The notes under the pieces: model-generated
Seen by the model: the letters and a program-made list of their open reading frames with translations, nothing else
Databases searched by the model: none
Told to the model about the DNA's origin: nothing
Program-made: the position numbers and the translations under genes
Shown: one piece after another, positions 98 to 8,172 of the stretch
Layout of the letters: each line of letters begins with the position of its first letter
Numbering within the stretch: the first letter of the stretch is position 1
From: Deltaproteobacteria bacterium
Lineage (GTDB): Bacteria; Myxococcota_A; UBA9160; UBA4427
NCBI GenBank assembly: GCA_019310385.1
Contig: JAFDEK010000015.1
Span: forward strand, 1-51,069
Direction: 5' to 3'
Length of the DNA: 51,069 nt

Positions 98-1774
98 ATG
101 GCCGAAGCGGTTCAGCAGACGAGCGACGAGATCCAGGACGCCTTTGCCCTGCTGGCGGAGATGACCCAGGGCTTCGCCGACACCATGGATCTGGACGCGA
201 CCCTCGCCCGGGCCCTGGCCTCCATCCGCGATCTCGTCGACGCCGAGGAGGGCTCCCTGTGGATGCTCGAGCCCGACGGGGAGCAGATCATCTGTGTGGC
301 CTCCGTCGGCCTTCACCCCATCGACGGCCTGCGCCTGCCCGTCAGCCAGGGGATCGTCGGCAAGAGCGTCCGCGAGTGCGCGTGCCAGCAGGTCTTCGAC
401 GCCTCGAATGACCCGCACTTCTCCTCCCAGGCCGACGACGAGAGCGGGGCCCAGACCCGCTCGTTGCTCTGCTCGCCCATGACCTTCTCCGACGAGGTCA
501 TCGGCGCCGTCGAAATGATCAACAAACGCTCGGGCAGCGGCTGCTTCGAGATGAGCGACGCCCATCTCCTGAAGGTCCTGGCCTCTTCGGCGGGGCTCGC
601 CATCGCGAACGCGCGCCTGTCTGCCGCAAAGGTGGAGCACGAGAAGGTGCGCCGCGAGATGGAGCTCGCCGCAGAGATCCAGCGCGGTCTCCTGCCCGAA
701 TCCCGTCCGGCTCCCTTCCCGATCTACGGAATCAACGTGCCGGCCCGTACGGTCTCGGGCGACTTCTTCGACATCCAGACCCTGGCGAACGGGCGCATCG
801 CCTTCTGCCTGGGCGACGTCTCGGGCAAGGGCATGAACGCGGCGCTGCTCATGGCCAAGACCGCCAGCCTCTACCGCTGTCTCGTCAAGACCATCGAGCG
901 TCCCGCCGAGCTGCTCTGCAGGTTGAATTCCGAGGTCTACGAGACCGCGACGCGAGGCATGTTCGTCACCATGGCGGCGGGAGTCTACGACCCCCAGAGC
1001 GGGGTCGTCTGCATCTCCAACGCGGGACACGAGCCCCCGCTGTACGCGACCCGGGAGGGAAGCTTCAGCGCGACTCCCGCAGACGCGCCACCGCTGGGAA
1101 TCCTGCCGGACTGCGACTTCACGGAGAGCGAGATCCAGCTCGAGGGCGGGACCCTGTATCTCTGCTCCGACGGCCTCACCGAGGCCATCGGGGGCGACGG
1201 GGAGAGCCTCGGAAGCGAGGGGCTGGAGCGCCTGGCGATCCGCTACCGCGGCGAGCCCGTGGGCGAGCGCATCACCGCCATCGTCGACCAGGTGGGCGAG
1301 CTGCTGCTGCGCGACGACCTCACGCTGCTCGGTGTGAGCGACGAGCCCCGCTACGCCGCCCTGGAGGGGCGGCTTCTCGAGCGGCGCTTCCCCGCCGAGG
1401 CGGGGCAGCTCGCCTCGGTGCGCAAGGCCGTCGAGGGCTGTGTGCTCTCCCGGGGTGCGGCCCAGGAGACCGCGTGCGACGTGGTGCGGGCCGTGGACGA
1501 GGCGTGCCAGAACATCATCCGCCATGCCTACGCGGATGAGGAAAAGGGCGACATCGTCCTTGAAATCGATTCCCAGCCCGGCGGGCTGATCGTCTCGCTC
1601 ACGGACTTCGCACCGCGCATCGACCCGCGCTGCGTCAAGCCCCGGGATCTCGACGATCTGAGGCCAGGAGGCCTGGGCACCCATCTGATCCGTGAGATCA
1701 TGGACTCGGTCGAGTTTTTGGAGCCGCCCCCGGGATGCGGCAATCTGCTAAGAATGATCAAGCGAATCGATTAG
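98..1774 (+). CDS. GAF - PP2C (SpoIIE/RsbU type) phosphatase - HATPase regulator
   Basis: 558-residue cytoplasmic signalling protein. A GAF sensor domain occupies about residues 15-172, followed by a short charged helix and a SpoIIE/RsbU-type Ser/Thr phosphatase domain (about 190-400) with the metal-binding Asp motifs SGDFFD (220-225) and GDVSGKG (239-245). An RsbW-like ATPase/kinase domain (about 425-555) follows, with N-box DEACQNIIRHAY (from 467) and glycine box GGLGTHLI. Families of this architecture both dephosphorylate a STAS anti-anti-sigma protein and carry an anti-sigma kinase module, making a partner-switching node. The very next gene is a STAS protein with the acceptor serine motif, its plausible substrate. 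The ATG at 98 gives a complete GAF domain. No sigma-factor gene is in view. Domain assignments are from sequence motifs; the ligand of the GAF domain is unknown. Confidence 0.9.
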   Translation: MAEAVQQTSDEIQDAFALLAEMTQGFADTMDLDATLARALASIRDLVDAEEGSLWMLEPDGEQIICVASVGLHPIDGLRLPVSQGIVGKSVRECACQQVFDASNDPHFSSQADDESGAQTRSLLCSPMTFSDEVIGAVEMINKRSGSGCFEMSDAHLLKVLASSAGLAIANARLSAAKVEHEKVRREMELAAEIQRGLLPESRPAPFPIYGINVPARTVSGDFFDIQTLANGRIAFCLGDVSGKGMNAALLMAKTASLYRCLVKTIERPAELLCRLNSEVYETATRGMFVTMAAGVYDPQSGVVCISNAGHEPPLYATREGSFSATPADAPPLGILPDCDFTESEIQLEGGTLYLCSDGLTEAIGGDGESLGSEGLERLAIRYRGEPVGERITAIVDQVGELLLRDDLTLLGVSDEPRYAALEGRLLERRFPAEAGQLASVRKAVEGCVLSRGAAQETACDVVRAVDEACQNIIRHAYADEEKGDIVLEIDSQPGGLIVSLTDFAPRIDPRCVKPRDLDDLRPGGLGTHLIREIMDSVEFLEPPPGCGNLLRMIKRID

Positions 1775-1834
1775 GAATGTGACCCGGGGATCGGGTCACT
1801 GGACCCCCAGCTAGAAGCGGCGCCGGAGAGCAAG

Positions 1835-2155
1835 GTGGAGCACAGCATCAGGGAAGAGGGGGCGAGTCTCGTCGTCGCTTTCTCGGGCGACGTCGATCTC
1901 GAGCACTCACCGAAGGCTCGTGAGGTGCTCCTCGAGACCGTGGGCCGGGGCAAGAAGGTCCTCGTCGACCTCTCGGGCGTCGAGTACATCGACAGCTCCG
2001 GCGTGGCGAGCCTGGTCGAGGCCTACAAGCTGGCGAAGACCCGGAGCCAGGAGCTCGCGCTGGCGTCGGTCAGTGCATCCGCCTTGCGCGTCCTGAAGCT
2101 CGCCCGCCTGGACAAGGTCTTCACCATCCACCCGACCGTGGCGGACGGCCTCTAG
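1835..2155 (+). CDS. STAS-domain protein (anti-anti-sigma factor or MlaB-like)
   Basis: 106-residue single STAS domain. The motif EYIDSSGVASLVEA contains the DSSG serine that is phosphorylated in SpoIIAA/RsbV proteins. The GTG start at 1835 is chosen because GGAG lies 6 bases upstream; the preceding gene stops 60 bp earlier. The stop is one base before the mlaE start, so it is probably co-translated with the transporter. Position fits two roles: substrate of the upstream phosphatase/kinase protein, or the MlaB-type STAS subunit that binds the transporter ATPase MlaF. Both are possible for one protein; the sequence alone does not decide between them. Confidence 0.85.
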   Translation: MEHSIREEGASLVVAFSGDVDLEHSPKAREVLLETVGRGKKVLVDLSGVEYIDSSGVASLVEAYKLAKTRSQELALASVSASALRVLKLARLDKVFTIHPTVADGL

Positions 2156-2156
2156 C

Positions 2157-2978
2157 ATGGCGGGACGGGCCAGCGCGCCGCCCTTTGCCGTGCGGCTGAC
2201 CGAGAGCGTCGGCCGGGGCACCCTGCGCGGCCTCTCCTCCGTGGGCTTCGGCGCCGCGCTGGTGGGTCAATCCATCTACTGGCTGTTCCTCGGCCGCCGC
2301 CATGGCCAGGTGGTGCGCGCCCGGCCGGTCTTTGCCGAGATGATGGAGATCGGGATTCGCGCCCTTCCCATCGTTACCCTGCTCTCGGTCACCATCGGGA
2401 TCATGCTGGCCATTCAGGGCATCTACCAGCTGAAGCGCTTCGGCGCCGAGAGCCAGGTGGTGCTCGGGGTGGCCTTCGGCATGACCCGGGAGTTTGCCCC
2501 ACTGATCACGGGCATCCTCGTGGCCGGCCGCTCGGGCTCGGCGCTGGCGGCGCGCCTGGGCACCATGACGATCAACCAGGAGGTCGACGCGCTGCGCGTC
2601 ATGGGGCTGAATCCGGTGCGCTTCCTCGCCGTGCCGAGCCTGGTCGCCATGATGATCATGCTGCCCTGCCTCGTCCTCTGGGCCGACATGGTCTCGCTCG
2701 TGGGCGCCGGTTTCTACATCAGCGCCGATCTCGGAATGACCATGTCCGCCTACTTCAACGAGGTGCTCGACCTGCTCAAGGTGGACGACATCCTCCACGG
2801 ACTCGAGAAGAGCGCCATCTTCGCGGTGCTCGTCACCGTCATAGGCATCGTGGATGGGGCCTCGGTGGAAGGCGGCGCGGAAGGGGTGGGCCGGGTCACC
2901 ACCAGCGCCGTGGTCCACGGCATCACGGCCATCGTCCTCGTCGACATGGTCTTTGCCTTCGCGACGACCCGGGGCTGA
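2157..2978 (+). CDS. mlaE: MlaE-family ABC lipid transporter permease
   Basis: 273 residues, typical length for MlaE/TTG2B permeases. Hydrophobic segments sit at about residues 65-90, 115-140, 160-195 and 210-270, with the family's conserved loop VAGRSGSALAARLGTM and the coupling region EVDALRVMGLNPVRFL. The family forms the inner-membrane channel of a phospholipid transporter working between the inner and outer membranes, with an MlaF ATPase and a periplasmic MCE ring. It starts one base after the STAS stop and is followed directly by the ATPase gene, so the operon order STAS-permease-ATPase-MCE-lipoprotein differs from the E. coli order but contains the same parts. Confidence 0.93.
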   Translation: MAGRASAPPFAVRLTESVGRGTLRGLSSVGFGAALVGQSIYWLFLGRRHGQVVRARPVFAEMMEIGIRALPIVTLLSVTIGIMLAIQGIYQLKRFGAESQVVLGVAFGMTREFAPLITGILVAGRSGSALAARLGTMTINQEVDALRVMGLNPVRFLAVPSLVAMMIMLPCLVLWADMVSLVGAGFYISADLGMTMSAYFNEVLDLLKVDDILHGLEKSAIFAVLVTVIGIVDGASVEGGAEGVGRVTTSAVVHGITAIVLVDMVFAFATTRG

Positions 2979-2981
2979 TTG

Positions 2982-3806
2982 ATGAGCGAAGCGAGCAGCG
3001 CTGCAGCGGAGGGCCCGGTCATCGAGGTGAGCGACCTCGTCACCCACTACGGCGAGCGGGAGATCCTCCACGGGGTGGATGTCTCCATTCGCCGGGGCGA
3101 GATCATGGTCATCATGGGGGGCAGCGGTTCCGGCAAGACCACCCTGCTGCGCCACATGCTGGGCCTCGAGCGCGCCACCTCGGGCTCGATCCGCCTGCTG
3201 GGCCACGAGCTCACCGAGATGAGCGACACCGAGCTCTACCAGCTCAGCAAGAAGATGGGCGTCGCCTTCCAGAGCGGCGCCCTCTTCAGCTCCATGACGG
3301 TGGGCGAGAACGTGATGCTCCCCCTGGTGGAGCACACCAAGCTCGACCGCGACACCATGGAGATCATGATGCGCATGAAGCTCGAGATCGTGCGCCTCGC
3401 CGGCTTCGAGGACCTCATGCCCTCGGAGCTCTCCGGCGGCATGATCAAGCGGGCCGCCTTTGCCCGCTCCATCATCATGGATCCCGCGGTGCTCTTCGCC
3501 GACGAGCCCTCCGCGGGGCTGGATCCGGTAGTGTCCCGCTCCCTGGATGAGCTCATCCTGGCCTTGCGGGACGCCATGGGGATGACGGTGGTGGTCGTCA
3601 CCCACGAGCTCGACAGCGCCTTTCGCATTGCCGACCGCATCACGGTTCTCGACCAGGGTGAGGTGCTCATCATCGGCAGCGTGGAAGAGGTGAAGAGCAG
3701 CGGAAACGAGCGCATCCAGAATCTGCTCCACCGGCGCTTCGAAGAGGTGGAGATTGACCCCGACGAGTACCTGGCGCGACTGACCGGGGACGAGCTGAGA
3801 GAGTGA
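2982..3806 (+). CDS. mlaF: MlaF-family ABC transporter ATPase
   Basis: 274 residues with the full ABC ATPase set: Walker A GGSGSGKTT, Q-loop AFQSGALFSSMT (typical of MlaF/MKL proteins), signature LSGGMIKRAAFARS, Walker B VLFADEPSAGLDP and the H-loop VVVTHELD. It energises the MlaE permease. A TTG three bases earlier is in frame, but the ATG at 2982 is the ordinary start, three bases after the mlaE stop. The C-terminal extension after the H-loop (about 45 residues) matches MlaF proteins that contact the STAS partner. The next gene follows after 4 bases. Confidence 0.93.
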   Translation: MSEASSAAAEGPVIEVSDLVTHYGEREILHGVDVSIRRGEIMVIMGGSGSGKTTLLRHMLGLERATSGSIRLLGHELTEMSDTELYQLSKKMGVAFQSGALFSSMTVGENVMLPLVEHTKLDRDTMEIMMRMKLEIVRLAGFEDLMPSELSGGMIKRAAFARSIIMDPAVLFADEPSAGLDPVVSRSLDELILALRDAMGMTVVVVTHELDSAFRIADRITVLDQGEVLIIGSVEEVKSSGNERIQNLLHRRFEEVEIDPDEYLARLTGDELRE

Positions 3807-3810
3807 GGCG

Positions 3811-4713
3811 ATGAGAGACGACGCGAAGAACTACATCCTGGTGGGCACCTTCGTGATGGCCATGGTGGCGGCATTGATCATCTGGATCGCGCTGGTCTCG
3901 GGGCGGACGGGGCCGGTGGATCACTATCGCGTCGTCTACGACAACGTCCTGGGCCTCAAGTCGGGCGTAGAGATCCTCTTCGAGGGCTATCCCGTGGGCT
4001 TCATCGAGTCGATCTCGCCCGTCGACCGGGACGGGCAGCGTCGCTACGAGCTCGAGGTGAGCGTGAAGGAAGGCTGGCCCGTTCCCGCCGACAGCATCGC
4101 GTCGATCCGCAGCCCGGGCCTGCTCGCGGCCTTCGTGATCGACATTCGGGGCGGAGAGTCCAATGCCCTGCTCCCGCCGGGCTCGGAGATCCCGAGCGCC
4201 GCAGCAGGGGACATCCTCGAGACCATGAACAAGCTGGCCGCCGGCGTGGATGGCATCCTGGAGGAGTCCGTCCGGCCGCTCCTGGACACGATCGCCGAGG
4301 GCGTTCCGTCGGTGCTCAGCAGCGTCGAGGAGATCACCACCGAGCTGAAGCATTCCACGAAGAACATCAATCGCCTGCTCGGTGACACGAACGTGGCGAG
4401 GGTTTCGAGCATCCTTCAGAACCTGGAATCGACCAGCGGCAACGCCAACCAGCTCGTTGTGAGCCTCTCCGACACCCGTGCGCGGCTCGACGAGGTGATC
4501 GGCAAGGTCGACGTGATCATGGAGCGGGAGAGTGGCGAGCTGCAGAAGGCCATCGCCGAGCTCAACTACTCCCTCGCGGCGGTATCTCGCCACATCGACG
4601 CCATCACGGCGAACCTCGAGACGACGACCCGCAACGCCAGCGAGTTCAGCCGCCAGATTCGCGAGAACCCGAGCGTCGTGCTGCGCGGCCGCGAACAGGC
4701 CGACGAGGAGTGA
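3811..4713 (+). CDS. mlaD: MlaD-family MCE-domain protein
   Basis: 300 residues. One N-terminal transmembrane anchor (about residues 8-28) is followed by an MCE domain (about 38-120; start of the fold VVYDNVLGLKSGVEILFEGYPVG). The long C-terminal region (about 130-290) is predicted helical, rich in Leu/Ile with Asn/Asp/Ser, and reads as a coiled coil. MCE proteins form hexameric rings that bind lipids in the periplasm; longer helical tails in PqiB/YebT- and Mce-type members build tunnels. This protein is longer than E. coli MlaD (about 180 residues), so the tail may span more of the periplasm. Its TGA overlaps the next gene's GTG. Confidence 0.9.
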   Translation: MRDDAKNYILVGTFVMAMVAALIIWIALVSGRTGPVDHYRVVYDNVLGLKSGVEILFEGYPVGFIESISPVDRDGQRRYELEVSVKEGWPVPADSIASIRSPGLLAAFVIDIRGGESNALLPPGSEIPSAAAGDILETMNKLAAGVDGILEESVRPLLDTIAEGVPSVLSSVEEITTELKHSTKNINRLLGDTNVARVSSILQNLESTSGNANQLVVSLSDTRARLDEVIGKVDVIMERESGELQKAIAELNYSLAAVSRHIDAITANLETTTRNASEFSRQIRENPSVVLRGREQADEE

Positions 4714-5351
4714 AGGCCGTGACGATCCAGCGGAGTTCATCGGTGCGCGCCCCGGGCAGCCTCCTGCCGGTAGCGTTCCTCTGCGCGCTCTTGTGCGGCG
4801 CCTGCGCGGCCGGCCCGGCGCCCCGCGACCACTTCTACCGCATCGATGTGGCGCTTCCCGAGCGCGCGGAGGCTGCGCCGGCCCACGACGGCATTCTCAT
4901 GGTGGAGCGCTTCTCCTCCGACTCCCTGATCCGGGGGCGACCGATCCTGCGTCGCAGCTCGGAGGACTCCCTCGAGGTCGTGCCCCTCGCCCGTCACTTG
5001 TGGACCGACTCGGCCCCGGTTCTGCTGCAGGGCGAGATGATCGACTACCTGCAGGCGGCGGGAGTCGCCCGCGAGGTCGTTTCGCACATCTTCAGGGCGA
5101 CTCCCGACTGGATCCTGCGGGGCCACATCAATCGCTTCGAGTTCGTCTCCACGCCCGCCGGCAACCGGGTCATCGTCGACCTGGAGCTCCGGGTTTCGAA
5201 GCCCCGCAGCGCGACCGCGCTGTGGGCCGGTACCTATCGCGTGGAGCGCGACGCGAGTTCCGGCGACTTCGAGAATACGGTGCACGCCTTCTCGGCGGCT
5301 CTGACGGAGCTGATGGCGGATCTGTCCGAAGACCTCAGACAGGCGCGCTGA
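4710..5351 (+). CDS. ABC-type transport auxiliary lipoprotein (PqiC/YmbA-like)
   Basis: 213 residues. The GTG at 4710 overlaps the mlaD stop as GTGA, indicating translational coupling. An N-terminal signal segment with hydrophobic core LLPVAFLCALL ends in LLCGAC, a plausible but not ideal lipobox. The mature part has the pattern of the ABC-type transport auxiliary lipoprotein family: an N-terminal HFYRIDVALPE strand, then RPILRRSSEDSLEVV and LWTDSAPVLLQ. Family members attach to the outer membrane and are the OM partner of MCE transporters (PqiC with PqiB). It closes the Mla-type operon, and two strong hairpins follow. The family call rests on position plus overall pattern rather than a diagnostic motif. 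Confidence 0.78.
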   Translation: MKAVTIQRSSSVRAPGSLLPVAFLCALLCGACAAGPAPRDHFYRIDVALPERAEAAPAHDGILMVERFSSDSLIRGRPILRRSSEDSLEVVPLARHLWTDSAPVLLQGEMIDYLQAAGVAREVVSHIFRATPDWILRGHINRFEFVSTPAGNRVIVDLELRVSKPRSATALWAGTYRVERDASSGDFENTVHAFSAALTELMADLSEDLRQAR

Positions 5352-5414: not shown

Positions 5415-5458
5415 AGCAACGAGGCCCCCACCCTGTCCGGGTGAGGGCCTCGCTTGCT
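5415..5458. terminator. hairpin between convergent operons
   Basis: A stem of about 18 bp, with a small bulge, pairs AGCAACGAGGCCC with GGGCCTCGCTTGCT around a short loop. It lies between the 3' end of the Mla operon (+) and the 3' end of the peroxiredoxin gene (-), so it can serve either strand. No clear U-run follows, so it may be a processing or Rho-assisted end rather than a classic intrinsic terminator. Confidence 0.55.
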
Positions 5459-5509: not shown

Positions 5510-6256
5510 TCAGAGCGGCACCGACGCGGCCACCAGCTTGGCGATGATGGCGGGGTGCTCGCTCGTCGCCTCGCCGCCGATCACCAGACAGGGCGCCTGG
5601 CTCGCGCCCGAAGCCTTGTCGAGTGCGCCCGCCGCGGCGCTGTCCTCGGACACGTTCTTCACCTGGATTCCGCTCAGGTGGAGATTCGCGAGGGCCTCCT
5701 GGGTGAAGCGCGAAGGACCGCAGTTGCTGCGCACGTAGAGCACGCCCGCGGCCGTGCCCGGCGCCGCCGGGACGTCCTCGGTGGGGGTGCCCCCGCCGTC
5801 GACGCGCTCGCACTCGGCCGCGAGGGCTTCGATGTCACGCTGCCCGCCGGGCCCGGTGCTCTCCGCGTACTGCACCGTGCCGGCGCTATCGATCAGCACC
5901 GTGGCGCGGTCCGTGATGCCGGCTCCCTCGAGATAGAGGCCCAGCTTCTGGGCGAGTTCGCCCTTGGGATTGAAATCGGCCAGCAGCGGAAAGGAGATAC
6001 CGCCGAGGGAGGCGCCCCATGCTGCATGGCTGAACTTGCTATCGACACTGACACCCAGCACCTGGGTGTGGGCCGCGCGGAAGCGCGCTTGGAGCGCCTC
6101 CGTCTGCGGCACTTCGATGCTTCAGGTGGGTGTCCAGTCGAGGGGATAGAAGAGGAGCAGCACGTGCCGTCTCCCCTTGAAGTCGCCGAGCGCGACCTTC
6201 CGCCCGAACTGGTCCTCGAGCGTGAAGTCGGGCGCGGCGTCGCCTACACCGATCAT
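5510..6256 (-). CDS. Selenocysteine peroxiredoxin (AhpC/BCP type) with C-terminal glutaredoxin-like domain
   Basis: Reading starts at ATG 6256-6254 behind an ideal GGAGGAG ribosome site (6 bases away). Codon 45 is TGA (6124-6122), after which the same frame continues to a stop at 5510. The N-terminal part begins MIGVGDAAPDFTLEDQFG, the usual peroxiredoxin start, and leads to LLLFYPLDWTPT-U-SIEVPQ. In this family the motif is PxxxTxxC, and UGA sits exactly on the peroxidatic cysteine, so the product is a 248-residue selenoprotein with Sec45. The thioredoxin fold continues to about residue 165 (VLGVSVDSKFSHAAW, FPLLADF). A second domain (about 170-248) looks glutaredoxin-like with VRSNCGPSR, a single-cysteine version of CxxC. 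It would reduce hydroperoxides, perhaps using its own C-terminal domain. Conventional calling starts at GTG 6112 and loses the active site. A cysteine-to-stop mutation is the alternative, but the rest of the frame is intact. Confidence 0.85.
6093..6113 (-). promoter_or_regulatory. candidate bacterial SECIS hairpin
   Basis: Just after the UGA, AGTGCC (6113-6108) pairs with GGCGCT (6098-6093), giving a 6-bp stem with a 9-base loop GCAGACGGA that starts with G. Bacterial SECIS elements are short hairpins just downstream of UGA with a G at the start of the loop. Here the loop G is the 15th base after UGA, slightly closer than the commonly quoted spacing. A second small hairpin (GCGCT-CCA-AGCGC) overlaps the 3' arm, so the exact fold is uncertain. 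Confidence 0.5.
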
Positions 6257-6462
6257 GTCATTCTCCTCCGCTTCCATTGCGGTATGTCGGGCGCCTGCGT
6301 TCCGCCCAGGGCACTGCTTCTCTCGGCGAGCTTAACACCGCCGAGCTACAGCCCCCAGTGCCGCCAGGCGCGCCTCGATCTGCTCGCGCTCGGCGGCATT
6401 TACGGCGTTGCGAGCCGCCTCCTCGCCTGGGACGTGGACCCCGGGGCAGCCTTCGCCGCGGC

Positions 6463-6717
6463 CTACTCGTCCCCGGCCTCCTCGACCCCGGCCTCCTCTT
6501 CGAGGCGCCGCTCCCACTCCGAGAAGGCCTCGGCGGCTTCGCGCAGCAGCCCATCCGCGTCGCCGCTGGGGACCTCGTCGATCATCAGGATGTTGCCGTC
6601 GAGGCGGAGGTCGGCGTCGCCTTCCGGGATCTCGACGACGAAGCGAGGCGTCTCGAGGTGGACGACGAAGTCGCGCTCGCCGTCGATGCTCTGGGCGATG
6701 AGCCAGCGCTCCTTCAT
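6463..6717 (-). CDS. small acidic protein of unknown function
   Basis: 84 residues starting at ATG 6717, which overlaps the upstream cyclase stop as ATGA, so it is translated with that gene. I do not recognise a family. The first half alternates hydrophobic and charged residues (FVVHLETPRFVVEIPEG, then LRLDGNILMIDEVP), suggesting a small beta fold. The second half is a very acidic helix (WERRLEEEAGVEEAGDE at the end). No membrane segment or cysteine is present. Tight coupling to the hydrolase-cyclase gene suggests a partner or modulator, but that is only inference. Confidence 0.7.
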   Translation of the reverse strand: MKERWLIAQSIDGERDFVVHLETPRFVVEIPEGDADLRLDGNILMIDEVPSGDADGLLREAAEAFSEWERRLEEEAGVEEAGDE

Positions 6718-8063
6718 GCCGGTGCGGGGACCTCGGCGGCAAAGAGCTGCCACTGCCCGGGAATGCCCTTCAGCGCGTGGACGCCCCGGTCGTGGAACTC
6801 GAGACCGGATCCCGCCACCAGGTCCCGAACCGTCTGGGAGGCGAGCACCTCCCCCGGCTCGGCCTGGGCGAGCACCCGCGCGGCGGTGTGCACCGCAATG
6901 CCGCCCACTTTGCCGCTCATCACCTCGCACTCGCCGGTGTGGATGCCCGCGCGGACCGCCAGCTGGAGGTCGCCGAGGGCGTCGTGAATCGCCCAGGCGC
7001 AGCGGATGGCGCGGGCGGGGCCGTCGAAGGTGGCGAAGAAGCCGTCGCCCGCCGTGTCCATCTCCCGCCCCCGGTAGCGCTGGAGCTGCCCGCGCACGAC
7101 GCCGTAGTAGCGCTCGAGGAGCTCCCGCCAACGGCGATCGCCCAGCTCGACGGCTCTCTCCGAGGACTTCACGATGTCGGTGAAGAGCACGGTCGCGAGC
7201 ACCCGGTCGATCTCCGGCTCGCGGCGCGCGCCGGTGAGGAACTCCTGGACCTCGTCCACGACACTGTCCACGTCGCCGACGAAGAAGAGGTGATCCGCAC
7301 CGGGCAGCTCGACCATGCGTGCGTCGGGAATGTGCTCGGCGAGATAGCGCCCGCACTCGACCCGGATCAGCCGGTCGTCCCTGCGGTGCAGGACGAGGGT
7401 GGGAACCCGGATCGTGGGGAGGACGGGACGCACGTCGATCTCGATGTTCATGCGCAGTAGCGCGATGGCTGCGCTCGGACTCGCGCCCGCGCGCAGATAC
7501 GCGGCCCAGCTTTCCAGGAATGCTTCGTCTTCGGCCAGGCTGGGCGCGAAGAGATTGGCTCCGAGGGGCGTGCCCCAGTCCCGCTCGAAGGCCTCGGCGA
7601 CCAGGGCGTGCTGCTCGCGGGTGGGCGCCCAGGGATAGTCGGGCTCCTGCATCCAGCGCGCGTAGCTTCCGTACATGATGAGCGCCTCGGTGCGCTCCGG
7701 GTAGGTGGCGCTGAAGAGGGCCGACATGGGGCCGCCTTCGGAGACGCCCAAGAGCGCCGCGCGCTCGGAGCCCGCCGCATCCATGACGGCTCGCACATCG
7801 TCCATTCGCTGCTCGAGGGTGGGCAGGTCGGATTCGGAGACGCGGTCGGAGAGCCCCGTGCCGCGCTTGTCGAAGACGATGACCCGCGCAAAGGACGCCA
7901 GCCCGCTTAGCAGACGAACGCAGCCCGGCTCGCGCCACAGGGCATCGAGATTGGAAACCCAGCCGGGCACCAGGACCAGGTCTAGATCGCCCTCTCCCAG
8001 CACCTGATAGGCGATGCTGACGTCGCCGCTACGGGCGAAACGGACTTGGGGCGCTGTCTCCAT
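6714..8063 (-). CDS. alpha/beta-hydrolase - class III nucleotide cyclase fusion
   Basis: About 449 residues from ATG 8063; an upstream GTG/ATG would add 34 unlikely residues. The N-terminal half is an alpha/beta hydrolase: oxyanion region VPGWVSNLD, nucleophile elbow GVSEGGP (Ser108), later a catalytic Asp (LHRRDDRLI) and His (PGADHLFF). The C-terminal half (about 285-445) is an adenylate/guanylate cyclase domain: LFTDIVKSS with a metal Asp, DTAGDGFFATFDGPARAI with the second metal Asp, and the transition-state region GGIAVHTAARV. Such fusions occur in several proteobacteria and actinobacteria and may couple a small-molecule ligand or hydrolysis to cAMP/cGMP production. The substrate and the cyclic nucleotide are unknown. 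It is translationally coupled to the small gene downstream. Confidence 0.87.
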   Translation of the reverse strand: METAPQVRFARSGDVSIAYQVLGEGDLDLVLVPGWVSNLDALWREPGCVRLLSGLASFARVIVFDKRGTGLSDRVSESDLPTLEQRMDDVRAVMDAAGSERAALLGVSEGGPMSALFSATYPERTEALIMYGSYARWMQEPDYPWAPTREQHALVAEAFERDWGTPLGANLFAPSLAEDEAFLESWAAYLRAGASPSAAIALLRMNIEIDVRPVLPTIRVPTLVLHRRDDRLIRVECGRYLAEHIPDARMVELPGADHLFFVGDVDSVVDEVQEFLTGARREPEIDRVLATVLFTDIVKSSERAVELGDRRWRELLERYYGVVRGQLQRYRGREMDTAGDGFFATFDGPARAIRCAWAIHDALGDLQLAVRAGIHTGECEVMSGKVGGIAVHTAARVLAQAEPGEVLASQTVRDLVAGSGLEFHDRGVHALKGIPGQWQLFAAEVPAPA

Positions 8064-8172
8064 GGAATCCAGGTCCAGTCCAGTTTCGGGAATCAGCGCA
8101 GAGGGTACAGCGGAATCGGCCCAGGGCGCAGCGGTCCGGTGTAGCTCCAACCTGCGCCGGCCCATCCTCGCG

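Follow-up and report, generated by a model that had tools for sequence, protein, structure and literature searches.

A predicted selenocysteine peroxiredoxin of the AhpE type with a fused glutaredoxin-like domain

A peroxiredoxin gene with an internal TGA codon

The window, which comprises 51,069 nucleotides of a contig from a Deltaproteobacteria bacterium, carries on its minus strand a gene that appears to encode a peroxiredoxin joined to a C-terminal glutaredoxin-like domain (Table 1). The reading frame starts at ATG 6256, passes through a single in-frame TGA at codon 45 (6124-6122) and ends at a TGA stop codon (5512-5510). The residues ahead of the internal TGA are MIGVGDAAPDFTLEDQFGRKVALGDFKGRRHVLLLFYPLDWTPT, and those after it begin with SIEVPQ. 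An earlier, sequence-only reading of this DNA had recognized an N-terminal peroxiredoxin motif with TGA in place of the cysteine of PxxxTxxC, a frame that remains open past this codon, and a good ribosome-binding site upstream of the ATG. All of the coordinates that we examined are accurate, and there is no further stop before the terminal TGA. The same reading anticipated that gene finders would begin at GTG 6112. A standard ORF caller does exactly this, and reports a 200 aa protein (5510..6112) without the active site. Ordinary annotation of these genomes can readily overlook the enzyme, because gene callers start at this GTG and drop its active site.

Table 1. Features of the fusion gene and its surroundings (positions in the window).
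Feature	Position	Strand	Basis or remark
Complete CDS, selenocysteine (Sec)-peroxiredoxin/glutaredoxin-like fusion (predicted), 248 aa	5510..6256	-	Frame reading and family comparison
Ribosome-binding site GGAGGAG, 6 nt from ATG 6256	6263..6269	-	Read in the sequence
Peroxiredoxin domain (AhpC-TSA, AhpE-like), residues 4-130	5867..6247	-	Pfam PF00578
In-frame UGA, residue 45, predicted peroxidatic selenocysteine position (PLDWTPT-U-S)	6122..6124	-	TGA in 33/33 family genes
Predicted SECIS hairpin, -14.5 kcal/mol; its apical loop opens with a G, 26 nt beyond the UGA	6070..6112	-	
Glutaredoxin-like domain, residues 172-229	5570..5743	-	Pfam PF00462
Cys179 of the C-G-P-S motif, proposed resolving residue	5720..5722	-	Invariant in the 32/32 members reaching the C-terminal domain
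Pro222-Cys223, Pro the predicted cis-Pro	5588..5593	-	Cys retained by some three quarters of the members
Inverted repeat, 14-nt arms 93% complementary, 58 nt beyond the stop; possible terminator without a T-run	5420..5452	-	

The fusion gene lies tail to tail with an Mla-type lipid transport operon (2157-5351, plus strand) that encodes an MlaE permease, an ABC ATPase, MlaD and an auxiliary lipoprotein. The upstream gene (6714-8165, minus strand) encodes an alpha/beta hydrolase joined to an adenylate/guanylate cyclase domain. Conserved operon partners were considered, and by eye the flanking ORFs of the relatives (kinases, decarboxylases, a beta-propeller-like protein) look mutually unrelated. 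On this visual inspection we treated the fusion gene as standing alone. A terminator scan found none, and an Rfam scan near it found no known regulatory RNA at gathering strength.

Conservation of the TGA codon in fusion genes from three phyla

A protein query was searched against 61 related genomes, with stops read through, and returned ten strong matches besides the window's gene, nine of them full-length and one ending at a contig end. Each of the ten has exactly one TGA, at codon 45. A profile (A1) was built from ten full-length members and then searched in further genomes. This recovered 26 fusion genes from 379 genomes of the window's phylum (the one at the contig end included), one from 195 genomes of a second phylum, and seven from 297 genomes of the phylum to which an Acidobacteria-labelled MAG belongs; a contig end cuts off one of these seven genes ahead of the site. 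The window's phylum is distinct from those of the Myxococcales-labelled MAG (L057) and the Acidobacteria-labelled MAG (L053). The site is intact in 33 genes (the window's gene and 32 others) from the three phyla, and every one of them has TGA at codon 45. Pairwise identity within the family is as low as 39%. No plasmid record was found to hold 80% of the fusion.

The sequence-only reading had suggested looking for alternation of Cys and Sec among homologues. Inside the fusion family this was not seen: none of the 33 genes from the three sampled phyla has the Cys form (TGC or TGT at codon 45), even though the query carried C there. Alternation shows only when the fusions are compared with their single-domain relatives. 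In keeping with membership among the selenoproteins, the in-frame UGA aligns with the peroxidatic Cys of AhpE and of the Cys-containing peroxiredoxin relatives (L055-L063). We also considered whether AGC is specially chosen after the UGA. The Ser46 codon is AGY in 32 of 32 members, but those of the conserved Ser 70 and 73 are nearly as biased, and we make no claim from this pattern.

Selenocysteine machinery in the source genome

The source genome (4.93 Mb, 88% complete) is a draft of 215 contigs. It encodes tRNA-Sec (71.8 bits against an Rfam gathering threshold of 47; anticodon tca according to ARAGORN), selA (504 bits), selD (324 bits) and selB, which is divided between two contigs: the gene begins at the end of C157 and continues at the start of C75. 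All four components of the machinery, a search for which the sequence-only reading had named as a check, are present in the genome. The selD gene (G000 contig C77, locus L018 1501-2424, minus strand) itself has an in-frame TGA within GGUARK, which we take to be the known Sec/Cys site of SelD, and ordinary annotation would truncate it. Given tRNA-Sec, selA, selB and selD, and a selD that carries its own Sec-UGA, translation of UGA as Sec in the source organism is very probable. Although each of the 26 genomes of the window's phylum with a fusion gene has selA, this gene also occurs in 75 of the 80 genomes of the order, and its co-occurrence with the fusion adds little.

Could the internal TGA be something other than a Sec codon? 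In a draft assembly, one TGA in a frame of 248 codons could be a sequencing or assembly error, or could mark a pseudogene interrupted by a stop. We regard this as vanishingly improbable and set it aside, because the TGA stands at codon 45 in 33/33 genes whose identity falls to 39%. These genes were assembled separately and have no other internal stop, and dN/dS in close pairs is about 0.1 to 0.2 on both sides of the TGA, indicating constraint at the protein level. The earlier argument that a chance stop would be unlikely to fall on this residue is borne out by the identical codon in the 32 other genes and by the coding constraint on both sides. It is also highly improbable that a general change of the code or near-cognate readthrough places Trp, Cys or another residue at the UGA. 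Some readthrough of UGA is always possible and nothing more specific favors this explanation, whereas UGA is the ordinary terminator of the fusion gene itself and of several relatives, the site is that of a chalcogen nucleophile, and the Sec machinery is complete. We consider it very likely, from the comparative sequence data and the Sec machinery, that the fusion gene encodes a selenoprotein and that Sec is the catalytic residue 45 of a peroxide-destroying enzyme.

A predicted hairpin downstream of the UGA codon

In the published bacterial SECIS model, the apical loop has 3-9 nt with a G in the first two loop positions, the loop lies 16-37 nt after the UGA, and the energy is at most -7.5 kcal/mol (PMC13188914). 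All 33 family genes fit these constraints. Compared with synonymous recodings, which preserve the protein and the codon usage of the family, hairpin stability has a mean z of -1.06 (SEM 0.19 for 33 genes, a figure that overstates their independence, since they are related); GC-rich control recodings often also pass the energy threshold. In approximately half of the members, a GGA loop 20 nt downstream of the UGA caps a stem of 6-7 bp, and some (L097, L104) show compensatory stem changes, for example GCAC/GUGC. The hairpin predicted in the window is in a different register from this stem, and with a z of only -0.39 against its synonymous recodings it is not distinguishable from controls. A SECIS element is supported at the level of the family, and for the window's own gene we infer one.

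Domain organization of the fusion protein

The peroxiredoxin domain matches AhpC-TSA (PF00578) with 112.5 bits against a cut-off of 26, and the match spans the TGA without a break. The AF2 model has a pLDDT of about 95 over residues 1-150, and the solved structure closest to this predicted fold is that of Mycobacterium tuberculosis AhpE (1.1 Å rmsd, TM 0.94 by target), which is also the best sequence match. The peroxiredoxin fold, the PxxxT(S)xxC/U motif and the conserved Arg of the AhpE subgroup are present. On the predicted fold and these motifs, the domain is AhpE-type, and the protein is assigned as a putative peroxidase from its predicted peroxiredoxin active site. Residues invariant in the family include P38, T42, U45 and R117 in the peroxiredoxin domain, and C179 and P222 in the second domain.

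The C-terminal domain, which the sequence-only reading had called glutaredoxin-like, has a modest score of 27.7 bits to Glutaredoxin (PF00462; cut-off 22.9). This Pfam family was matched by all 10 members scanned, eight of which also matched GST_N families. The motif of the second domain is C-x-x-S in 30 of the 32 members; L106 and L117 have C-x-x-C instead. Among the residues that could have redox roles, only U45 and C179 are invariant; C149 (found in most members) and C223 are common, not invariant, and are possible candidates for other resolving residues. The AF2 model of the glutaredoxin domain is poor, with a pLDDT of about 50 in two runs, and yields no confident fold or Sec45-Cys179 distance.

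Comparison with known peroxiredoxins

The Sec-peroxiredoxins are established as a family of selenoproteins (PMC1794560, PMC1088965, PMC13188914). Like the fusion as predicted here, PrxU of Eubacterium acidaminophilum (TxxU family in catalogues of prokaryotic selenoproteins, NCBIfam NF040737) has Sec for the peroxidatic Cys in PxxxTxxU, its UGA being decoded with the help of a downstream hairpin. The PrxU model comprises a single peroxiredoxin domain, whereas the fusion has an AhpE-like peroxiredoxin domain and a C-terminal glutaredoxin-like domain. The fusion scores 71.1 bits to NF040737 and does not reach its cut-off of 270, and none of the curated NCBIfam models reaches its cut-off on the fusion. 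M. tuberculosis AhpE is a 1-Cys peroxiredoxin that is reduced by the glutaredoxin-like mycoredoxin-1 (Mrx1); unlike the fusion, it has Cys as nucleophile and relies on a reductase encoded separately (PMC4360819). The PGdx protein of Haemophilus influenzae, with an N-terminal peroxiredoxin and a C-terminal glutaredoxin, is a glutathione-dependent peroxidase and an atypical 2-Cys peroxiredoxin (PMC1361801). PGdx resembles the fusion in having both domains in a single chain. By its description, it is set apart by Cys where the fusion is predicted to have Sec, and by the AhpE-type peroxiredoxin domain and monothiol glutaredoxin motif of the fusion. The peroxiredoxin domain of PGdx is of the Prx5 type, and the best relatives of the fusion are of the AhpE type and AhpC-TSA, not Prx5.

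The sequence-only reading had raised the possibility of an undescribed architecture. This holds in part: we found no description of an AhpE-type Sec-peroxiredoxin/glutaredoxin fusion in the open-licence literature, but the joining of peroxiredoxin and glutaredoxin per se is known from PGdx. We would class the protein as a new domain architecture among the Sec-peroxiredoxins, of the AhpE type. Sec-peroxiredoxins counted in earlier surveys (e.g., three in Anaeromyxobacter) could include undescribed fusions.

Single-domain Sec-peroxiredoxins occur in Acidobacteria/Blastocatellia MAGs (L052-L054), with the site PLDWTPV-U-T and 48-49% identity to the fusion in the peroxiredoxin domain; they differ from it in having no glutaredoxin domain. 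Two others, at L033 (match 1501-1908, minus strand) and at L119, have the sites PLAFTGG-U-T and PLDFTPT-U-S; they come from other genomes, one of them of the family to which the window's organism belongs. The single-domain relatives of Phenylobacterium, Sphingopyxis and others have Cys at the peroxidatic site. In the Phenylobacterium MAG (L055, 3001-3777), the AhpE-like Cys-peroxiredoxin gene ends with TAA, and beyond this stop a distinct glutaredoxin-like ORF (3484-3777) lies in the same frame. This ORF resembles the fused domain weakly (hhalign E 0.0046, probability 7.6%), and the pair is only suggestive of an unfused counterpart of the fusion.

Proposed reaction cycle and thiol donor

With the codon and the machinery present, tRNA-Sec and SelB would insert Sec45 at UGA 6124-6122, aided by the hairpin just downstream. 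Judging from the peroxiredoxin active site, Sec45 would reduce H2O2 or organic hydroperoxides and be converted to a selenenic acid. Cys179 of the monothiol (CGxS) glutaredoxin-like domain may then regenerate the selenol, alone or via a small-thiol adduct on Sec45. In this way, one chain would carry out the step for which AhpE, a separate 1-Cys enzyme, depends on mycoredoxin-1. Because U45 and C179 are invariant, the second motif is C-x-x-S and the system resembles AhpE/mycoredoxin-1, we lean toward a 1-Sec peroxidase with an intramolecular relay, in which oxidized Sec45 would be resolved by the fused monothiol glutaredoxin domain.

Alternatively, the Sec-peroxiredoxin may be real and its C-terminal domain not the reductant. 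The domain could instead bind a partner, an Fe-S cluster or glutathione, with free thioredoxin recycling the enzyme as for PrxU/AhpC. The CGFS-type motif resembles that of the monothiol glutaredoxins, which in many cases bind an Fe-S cluster, and the scores of most scanned members to GST_N families and the Acidobacteriota-side genomes without a clear GshB (see below) point in the same direction. An invariant Cys fused to a peroxidase site, together with the AhpE/mycoredoxin-1 and Cys-type PGdx precedents, argues instead for the relay, as does the separate glutaredoxin-like gene directly behind the Cys-peroxiredoxin gene in the Phenylobacterium MAG. We consider a role other than that of reductant possible, but doubtful. 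If the relay operates, the fusion provides a single-chain model for AhpE and mycoredoxin. The combination of a fast Sec nucleophile with a tethered resolving domain, for which no Cys fusion was found, also lends itself to testing why Sec is retained in evolution.

The source of electrons may vary within the family. Among the Acidobacteriota-side fusion genomes (G583, G626, G662, G819, G843, G851 and G859), six have no GshB and G843 has a weak match. It is unlikely that glutathione made by GshB is the donor in all members, unless the organisms on the Acidobacteriota side import glutathione or synthesize it in another way, or their genomes are incomplete. We give roughly even odds to a broader proposal, that these proteins form an obligate, Sec-only family of 1-Sec, AhpE-type peroxidases in at least three phyla, with an intramolecular glutaredoxin resolver and, in some phyla, a thiol other than GshB-made glutathione. 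The GshB ATP domain was detected in the source genome, in every other genome of the window's phylum that carries the fusion, and in the genome from the second phylum. Based on the presence of GshB, the final electron donor in the window's organism is probably glutathione.
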